Origin: Halapricum desulfuricans
GTDB taxonomy: Archaea > Halobacteriota > Halobacteria > Halobacteriales > Haloarculaceae
Assembly (NCBI RefSeq): GCF_017094525.1
Contig: NZ_CP064788.1
Span: forward strand, 2,155,030-2,219,029
Direction of reading: 5' to 3'
DNA length: 64,000 nt
Made by a program: the position numbers and the translations under genes. Shown piece after piece: positions 55,852-58,330 of the stretch (positions within the stretch are counted from its first letter, which is position 1; the number at the start of each line of letters is the position of its first letter). The notes under the pieces are model-generated. The model made no database searches. It had not been told where the DNA came from and worked only from the letters and a program-made list of their open reading frames with translations.

Positions 55852-56763
55852 ATGGCAGACGACGACCCATCTGATGAGGACCTCCCGGACAACGTTCTCT
55901 TCGAGTTGTACCGGCACTACATCGGCGAGCCCGACGATCAGATCGACGTGTATCTCGGGTTCGGACTGTTCTTCGGCGGCATCGCGTTCGCGGCCGTCGG
56001 ACTCGTGTTCTTCGTGGCGGCGTACCTGTTTACCCACGGCAGCGACCCGTTCTGGTTGCTCCGCGAGATCTCGTTCGCGATGGGGATGCTGTCGGTCCCG
56101 ACGCTGTTGCTCGGGGTACTGGTGCTGCTGCCCGTCGACGTTCGGGCGACCTATACGGGCGTGCTCGGGACCGCGATCACCGTCGTCGCCGTCGCCGGGT
56201 TCGCGTACCTCTACCCCTGGGAGTTCAACGTCGAAGGCGCGGAGTACACGATCCACGTCGTCCTCGGGTACGCCATCGGGATGGGGCTCGTGGTCGTCTC
56301 GACCGGGACGGCGCTTGTCGCCCACCAGATCGAACGGGCGAAACCGAGCCCGGCCGACATCGAGCCGATGGAAGAGCCCGAACCCGAGGAGTCCTACAGC
56401 GACGAGGAGATCCGCCAGGACATCGAAGCGGCGATGGAAGACGTCGACATCACCTGGGGCGGGGTCGAACGTCACGAGGGGCAGTCGCTCACGCTCAACC
56501 TCGAGGGTGACTACGATCTCTCGGGCATGGACGTCGAAGCCGAACGGATCACCAGTTCCTCCTCGACCGACGCCCAGGTTCAGGGCCTGAAAGCGCTGAA
56601 GGGCGGCGAAACGAAGACTGCGACCTCGGAATCGACGGTGGACGACCAGACCACGAAACTCAACGAACTCAGACAGCGACGCAAGGAGGACCAGCAGGCG
56701 AAGGCGGCCACCGCATCCAGCGAAGGACTGCTCGCGAGAATCAGAAGGTTTTTCGGCGGGTAG
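55852..56763 (+). CDS. Four-helix membrane protein with a long acidic cytoplasmic tail, upstream of salactin
   Basis: A 303-residue protein. The N-terminal 30 residues are acidic, four helices follow (about 38-62, 75-95, 102-120 and 128-165), and then a 140-residue hydrophilic tail. That tail contains SDEEIRQDIEAAMEDVDITWGGVERHEG, a compact beta-rich section (LTLNLEGDYDLSGMDVEAERI) and a basic end RIRRFFGG. An ATAATTAC box about 28 bases before the ATG suggests a leaderless message. The homologue order next to the actin gene suggests a membrane partner or anchor for that filament, which is inference. The terminal amphipathic RIRRFFGG could also touch the membrane. Confidence 0.72.
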   Translation: MADDDPSDEDLPDNVLFELYRHYIGEPDDQIDVYLGFGLFFGGIAFAAVGLVFFVAAYLFTHGSDPFWLLREISFAMGMLSVPTLLLGVLVLLPVDVRATYTGVLGTAITVVAVAGFAYLYPWEFNVEGAEYTIHVVLGYAIGMGLVVVSTGTALVAHQIERAKPSPADIEPMEEPEPEESYSDEEIRQDIEAAMEDVDITWGGVERHEGQSLTLNLEGDYDLSGMDVEAERITSSSSTDAQVQGLKALKGGETKTATSESTVDDQTTKLNELRQRRKEDQQAKAATASSEGLLARIRRFFGG

Positions 56764-56885
56764 CTTGAGAGGATCCGCCAGTAGATACCCTCAGGACTGC
56801 GATTTCAGACAGGAAAAAATTACACTCATAATCTATTTAGCCCGTTTCACATAGTTTTATTAGACCGCGCCAAGTTGTCCAGAAC

Positions 56886-57914
56886 ATGGCGAAAGGACTA
56901 GACGTCGGCACGATGAACATCATTTCGGCACAACAGGAAGGTAACGAGACGGTCTTCGTTCAGCAGCGGAACTCGTTCGTCGAGATCGAATACTCCGACA
57001 TGGCGGAGCAGATGCTCAGTCGGTCGGACGTCCTCCACATCCGCAAGGACGACAAGGTGTACGTCGTCGGGGACGACGCGCTGAACTTCGCGAACATCTT
57101 CAACAAGGAGACGCGCCGGCCGATGCAACACGGCATCCTCTCCAGCGACGAGAAGTCCGCGATCCCGATGATGAAACTCATCATCGAGCAGGTCGTCGGC
57201 TCGCCGGACCATCCGAACGAGAAAATCTATTTCTCGACACCGGCCGATCCGATCGACTCGGATCTCTCGACGCTGTATCACCAGAAGACCATCGAGAGCT
57301 TCCTCGACGAGATGGGCTACGACGCCGAGCCGATCAACGAGGGGATGGCCGTCATCTACTCCGAGTTGGCGGACAACGACTTCACCGGGCTGGGGATCAG
57401 CTTCGGTGCCGGGATGACCAACGTCACGCTGGCGTACTACGCGGTTCCGGTCATGAAGTTCTCGGTCGCCCGCGGTGGCGACTGGATCGACGAGCAGGCC
57501 GCTCAGGCGACTGGCACGCCCGTCGACAAGGTCACCTCGATCAAAGAGGAGGACTTCGAACTGGACTTCACGACCGACGTCGGCGGCGTCGAGGGCGCGC
57601 TGTCGATCTACTACGAGAACCTGCTGGACTACGTCATCGACCTCATCCAGCGTGAGGTCGATGAGGAAGACGTCGAGGAAGGGCTGGACGTGCCGGTCGT
57701 CGTCACTGGCGGGACTTCGACGCCCGACGGCTTCACGAAACTCTTCGAGCGCCACCTCGAAGAAGCCAACATCCCGTTCTCGATCAGCGGCGTCTCTCAC
57801 GTCGACGAGCCGATGTACTCGGTCGCCCGCGGTGGGCTCGTCGCAGCTCGGTCCGACGAGGAACAGCCCGCAGAAGAAGAACCCGAACAGGAACCCGAAG
57901 CCGCCGAAGACTGA
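56886..57914 (+). CDS. Salactin-type haloarchaeal actin homologue
   Basis: A 342-residue actin/MreB-superfamily protein, strongly reminiscent of salactin, the dynamically unstable actin of Halobacterium. Phosphate-1 is [17 protein letters not shown], connect-1 region [13 protein letters not shown], phosphate-2 [15 protein letters not shown] and the adenosine motif [13 protein letters not shown]. The canonical phosphate-2 Asp (DxGxG) is Ser here, which should affect ATP handling. The C-terminus is a 20-residue acidic tail. A GTTTTATTAG box about 28 bases upstream indicates its own leaderless promoter, even though a membrane-protein gene precedes it by 122 bp. It would form cytoplasmic filaments involved in cell polarity or DNA partition. 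Confidence 0.85.
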
Positions 57915-57967: not shown

Positions 57968-58330
57968 CTACTCAGCTGCCGGCTCGTCGTCGGTTTCGGC
58001 TTCCTCGCCGTCGGTCGGTTCGTCGTCGGGTTCGGTTTTTACGTCGGCAGCCGTCTCGGCTGCTGTACTAGCCTCGACAGCCGAGTCGTCGCTGTCCGGT
58101 TCGACCTCAACCAGCGCCGCGGTTTCACCGGATCCGACGATCGCCGCTTCGGTGTCGACGTGTTTCCGGTAGAACCGCTCCAGAGCGCGCTCCCACGGCT
58201 CCGGTTCCGGTCGAGTTTTCACCTCGTGTTCGACGGTCGTATCGACGAACCCACAGTCGGCGCACACGTAGGCCTCCTGTTCGCCCAGCGAGTAGACCTC
58301 CAGATCGCCCCCGCACCGGGAACAGTCCAT
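57968..58330 (-). CDS. Small zinc-ribbon protein with a disordered acidic tail
   Basis: A 120-residue protein. The N-terminal CSRCGGDLEV...CADCGFVDT forms a zinc ribbon (residues 3-27), and a helical stretch WERALERFYRK follows. The last 60 residues are Asp/Glu/Ala/Thr-rich and surely disordered. No specific family is recognised. It is convergent with the salactin gene (53 bp between stop codons). Confidence 0.65.
   Translation of the reverse strand: MDCSRCGGDLEVYSLGEQEAYVCADCGFVDTTVEHEVKTRPEPEPWERALERFYRKHVDTEAAIVGSGETAALVEVEPDSDDSAVEASTAAETAADVKTEPDDEPTDGEEAETDDEPAAE

Follow-up and report, generated by a model that had tools for sequence, protein, structure and literature searches.

Volactin and a tail-bearing DUF7139 membrane protein: a conserved gene pair and a candidate membrane partner for a haloarchaeal actin

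The window, the whole stretch of 64,000 nucleotides from Halapricum desulfuricans that was analyzed, contains the two open reading frames on which the preliminary description was based, an actin-superfamily gene and the membrane-protein gene before it, both on the + strand and separated by 122 nt. The genes and features discussed here are the following.

55852..56763, + strand: DUF7139 membrane protein of the volactin-linked type, 303 aa (ORF; Pfam PF23600, E 1.9e-43; AlphaFold2; tree)
55939..56340, + strand: transmembrane module, helices at residues 30-57, 65-92, 97-120 and 133-163 (AlphaFold2, pLDDT mostly > 90)
56404..56469, + strand: tail motif 1, residues 185-206, EIRQDIEAAMEDVDITWGGVER; common consensus roughly EEIxxDIEEA
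56566..56607, + strand: tail motif 2, residues 239-252, TDAQVQGLKALKGG; Leu at residue 246 invariant
56623..56682, + strand: tail motif 3, residues 258-277, TSESTVDDQTTKLNELRQRR; onset of the predicted helix 263-287
56722..56760, + strand: basic, hydrophobic C-terminal peptide, LLARIRRFFGG end
56855..56862, + strand: TATA-like element TTTTATTA, its centre near -27 relative to the volactin start codon
56886..57914, + strand: volactin, actin-superfamily protein, 342 aa (ORF; PF25216, E 4.4e-137)

The actin matched the Pfam family Volactin with a score of 457.3 bits over model positions 1-321 of 321, passing the curated cut-off of 35 bits. Salactin (PF25229) is a separate Pfam family; its model was in the library searched, and the window actin did not match it at E 1 or better. 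The product had been described as a salactin-type actin. It is a haloarchaeal actin, but the subfamily was wrong, and the salactin-type label was rejected. The true salactin of the same genome lies at G000 C1:1144621-1145625, 1.1 Mb from the window volactin, and the Halapricum genome therefore encodes two actin families. Similarity between the two is weak and limited to the last third; proteins with a weak Volactin match over that third matched Salactin at E < 1e-180. Window volactin was 78-98% identical to named haloarchaeal orthologues, Haloferax included, and its closest named relatives were from Halapricum, with the actin of H. hydrolyticum being 97% identical. Mean column identity in the orthologue alignment was 88%. 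Haloferax volactin belongs to the same family over its full length, is about 79-83% identical, and has the same DUF7139 gene upstream. We infer an actin fold for the window protein from weak, sub-cut-off Pfam matches to MreB_Mbl and Actin; the AlphaFold2 model, made on a shallow alignment, had a mean pLDDT of 45.8 and was set aside as too poor. No membrane segment was predicted in volactin itself in the loci checked outside the order. Just 3' of volactin is a convergent gene (57968-58330) for a zinc-ribbon-like protein of 120 residues, a relative of which was present in 33 of the 67 full loci, which would make it a possible third member of the association.

In 78 of 92 orthologous loci, the most AT-rich 7-mer upstream of volactin had its centre between -25 and -30, and volactin probably has its own promoter and a leaderless message. 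With this element near -27, the haloarchaeal genes, though adjacent, are probably transcribed from separate promoters. Both genes had been credited with TATA boxes at leaderless spacing. For volactin the element is conserved; for the DUF7139 gene, AATAATTA is present about -28 before the gene start in the window, but a conserved position could not be demonstrated because the start calls are uncertain. Outside the order, the gaps between the DUF7139 and volactin genes are often on the order of ten bases, and judging by this spacing the pair there looks like an operon.

The gene preceding volactin had been described as encoding a four-helix membrane protein, which was borne out both by the Pfam match (148.1 bits over residues 15-163, passing the curated cut-off of 30 bits) and by the four helices of the AlphaFold2 model, which was computed from an alignment of 56 orthologues. 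In relatives outside the order, lysine and arginine were most abundant in the loop joining helices 2 and 3 and scarcest in the one joining helices 3 and 4, a pattern consistent with both ends of the protein being inside. The search of solved structures for a counterpart of the membrane part gave no convincing match (best E 0.16).

The tail of 140 residues is acidic, with 32 D+E against 16 K+R, while its last 13 residues are basic, with a charge of +2. AlphaFold2 gave mostly low confidence to the tail, with a helix at residues 263-287. Three stretches are conserved, of which the first and third could be traced outside the order: many relatives there have EEIERDIEEA as the counterpart of motif 1, and in motif 3, where pLDDT was about 86 at residues 271-280, the leucine aligned with L270 is invariant across the phylum. 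The C-terminal charge was +2 or more in most orthologues, whereas the remaining 13-mers of these tails averaged -1.9; in all 15 tails sampled outside the order, the C-terminal charge was +1 to +6. An acidic tail with a basic, amphipathic end had been proposed; the acidity and the basic end held, but the amphipathic moment was not above that of shuffled sequences (median p 0.17), and a C-terminal amphipathic helix was therefore rejected as a special feature. A match of the tail end to FtsA_C (E 0.11) was within chance and was also discarded, and comparison of the tail with solved structures yielded nothing below E 0.1.

We surveyed 195 genomes of the order for full volactin and for the tail of the DUF7139 protein (profile A2, which the window's own copy matched at E 5.5e-54). 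Setting aside one weak tail match in one genome (G059, E 4.6e-4), the two occurred together in 89 genomes and were both lacking in 106, with 0 discordant; the tail gene was directly upstream of volactin in 76. DUF7139 as a whole family is far wider (181 of the 195 genomes), so that only the tail-bearing paralogue follows volactin. A tree of DUF7139 proteins separated two deep groups (SH-aLRT 100), one of which held all volactin-linked copies, including that of the window, together with a long-branched paralogue (L124) from the window's own genome. Conservation of the tail motifs is specific to the volactin-linked copies. When the neighbours of volactin were ranked in 67 loci with full flanks, DUF7139 was found in 66 and the next commonest neighbour in 48. 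The sole full-flank locus with no adjoining DUF7139 (L090) was rejected as an exception to the pairing, as its genome carries the gene at another site. An apparent gene fusion (L118) was rejected as evidence of interaction, being a frameshifted DUF7139 frame that runs into the volactin frame.

The adjacency is ancient. Outside the order, 32 of 32 genomes with full-length volactin had DUF7139 directly upstream on the same strand, one genome (G338) having been left out of the phylum survey since its volactin was present only as broken pieces. In 15 of 15 such loci examined, a three- or four-helix DUF7139 gene was immediately upstream, and Pfam recognized all 15. The volactin genomes outside the order have a G+C content of 35-51%, which is not typical of haloarchaea, and the spread of the pair suggests a system older than the haloarchaea. 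Pooling the two surveys, 121 of 121 volactin genomes carry the tail-bearing DUF7139 gene, a near-absolute co-retention. The preliminary description had suggested comparing gene neighborhoods and co-occurrence, and by both the pair proved to be conserved.

Adjacent genes can be lost together by a single deletion, as at L209:6187-6624, where one deletion removed most of both genes, fused the start of DUF7139 to the end of volactin and left a relict frame of 146 residues. In the mixed genera of the window's family (g3, g4, g5, g6 and g7), volactin and the tail gene agreed in every case, the genes there usually being adjacent. In another genus (g12) the two genes are mostly far apart, and both were present in 35 of 52 genomes and neither in 16, with a single draft genome having the tail gene only. 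On a purL tree of this genus, the state of volactin changed 8 times in the best tree, about 6 changes being forced by the starred branches. When independent pairs were drawn on the same tree, 5 agreed, 0 opposed and 1 did not differ (p 0.0625). The idea that the membrane neighbor is a dedicated partner is thus upheld by co-occurrence that includes genomes in which the genes are distant. As a control, salactin showed no association with the tail gene (p 0.15), and no DUF7139 gene was found in the three salactin loci examined. Salactin (VNG0153C of Halobacterium salinarum) is a haloarchaeal actin-superfamily protein whose filaments grow from the cell poles, and poor synteny is reported for it in the passages concerned (PMC10746226).

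Volactin of Haloferax volcanii (HVO_2015) forms dynamic filaments that contact the membrane only by their tips, and its binding factors are called unknown in the relevant passages of that report, the main text of which does not describe the DUF7139 neighbor and places suspected shape genes in the region from hvo_2013 to hvo_2020 (PMC10869688). Among volactins, such tip-attached filaments are known for HVO_2015 only. In H. volcanii, volactin is the driver of the transition from rods to disks and of tissue-like development. What holds its tips at the membrane is so far unnamed in the open papers searched, with preprints and supplements outside the search: no membrane partner was named in their passages on volactin, and none was found to mention DUF7139, PF23600 or HVO_2016.

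A membrane-seated protein that is always co-retained with volactin, and whose conserved tail is probably cytoplasmic, is a natural candidate for a tip anchor, and its retention in 121 of 121 genomes makes the DUF7139 protein the best candidate for the membrane anchor of volactin filaments. The best explanation is that tail-bearing DUF7139 is the dedicated membrane partner of volactin and most likely its tip anchor. We put the probability that the two proteins act as one functional unit, with the DUF7139 protein tethering and perhaps nucleating filament tips at the membrane, at a little under 0.6. The four helices would lie in the membrane so that both termini are inside, the conserved tail motifs would bind volactin, and the basic C-terminal peptide would contact either the membrane or the filament. 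The DUF7139 protein would then hold, and perhaps nucleate, volactin filaments at their tips, with direct binding, localization at the tips and an effect on filament dynamics all being predicted. Such a role fits the tip attachment of volactin filaments in the published passages (PMC10869688). With one membrane protein that is co-retained throughout and carries conserved tail motifs, the matter comes down to one gene in a genetically tractable archaeon.

Co-retention fits a regulator equally well as an anchor. The main rival, which we consider rather unlikely, is that DUF7139 is a partner but not an anchor, namely a sensor or regulator at the membrane, of tension, curvature or growth state for example, whose tail controls the polymerization or abundance of volactin. 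DUF7139 is a four-helix module on which tails have been exchanged, as in two loci of the window's own genome (L126 and L128) and in L142, L143 and L145; the widespread type has a DUF7140 tail (L126) or a cysteine-bearing tail, and L128 has five DUF1508 repeats. This variety of tails would suit a receptor-like platform, and mechanosensing has been proposed for volactin in passages of another report (PMC7617734). On the other hand, the membrane part had no convincing match among solved structures, as given above, and volactin filaments need some attachment to the membrane, for which no other constant neighbor was found. No other DUF7139 paralogue was seen beside cytoskeletal genes when the neighborhoods examined were inspected by eye.

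A weaker alternative is that the two proteins only share a pathway, such as shape change, and do not touch, their adjacency being a remnant of ancestral operon order. The genes are separable, and haloarchaeal volactin has a promoter of its own, both of which suit a loose link. Yet co-occurrence in 121 of 121 genomes would not be expected when other common neighbors turn over, nor would conservation of the tail motifs in the volactin-linked copies specifically, and we regard this alternative as improbable. Any window can hold two neighboring genes, but conservation across the phylum and co-retention when the genes are unlinked exclude, for practical purposes, chance adjacency or general synteny with no functional meaning.

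The proposed anchor can be set beside known systems. In bacteria, the actin homologue MreB is bound on the cytoplasmic side by a dedicated membrane protein, RodZ, whose single membrane helix is combined with a folded helix-turn-helix domain. The volactin pair resembles this arrangement in that an actin homologue is matched with a probable dedicated membrane protein, the contact in the volactin pair being predicted. It differs in that the DUF7139 protein has four helices, with a tail that carries motifs but is mostly unstructured, and in that volactin meets the membrane by its tips and not along its length. FtsA and some actins carry an amphipathic membrane-targeting helix, which the basic, hydrophobic C-terminal peptide of the DUF7139 protein recalls; here, however, the peptide is on the partner and not on the actin, and it follows a true transmembrane module.

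Long paralogues of volactin were detected as second matches in 24 of the 195 genomes of the order, all among the 89 with ordinary volactin. In nine loci from nine genomes (L130-L138), the frames were about 780-1260 codons, and in each the volactin domain was followed by a long region, with a hydrophobic segment at the C-terminus; coiled-coil-like Pfam matches were obtained in 4 of the 4 scanned. No DUF7139 gene was found beside the long paralogues in the flanks examined. That proteins with a hydrophobic segment of their own have no DUF7139 gene beside them in those flanks is a hint toward a membrane-tether role for DUF7139. More tentatively, and with the odds somewhat against it, volactin and DUF7139 may represent a tip-anchored actin system ancestral to the phylum, with filaments held by their ends and not their sides, unlike MreB-RodZ; some lineages would then have added a one-protein version, whose chain runs from a volactin domain through a long coiled coil to a membrane segment at the C-terminus. 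An FtsZ gene (Tubulin and FtsZ_C) was located directly before the DUF7139-volactin pair in three genomes (L221, L224 and L227), all of one family outside the order.
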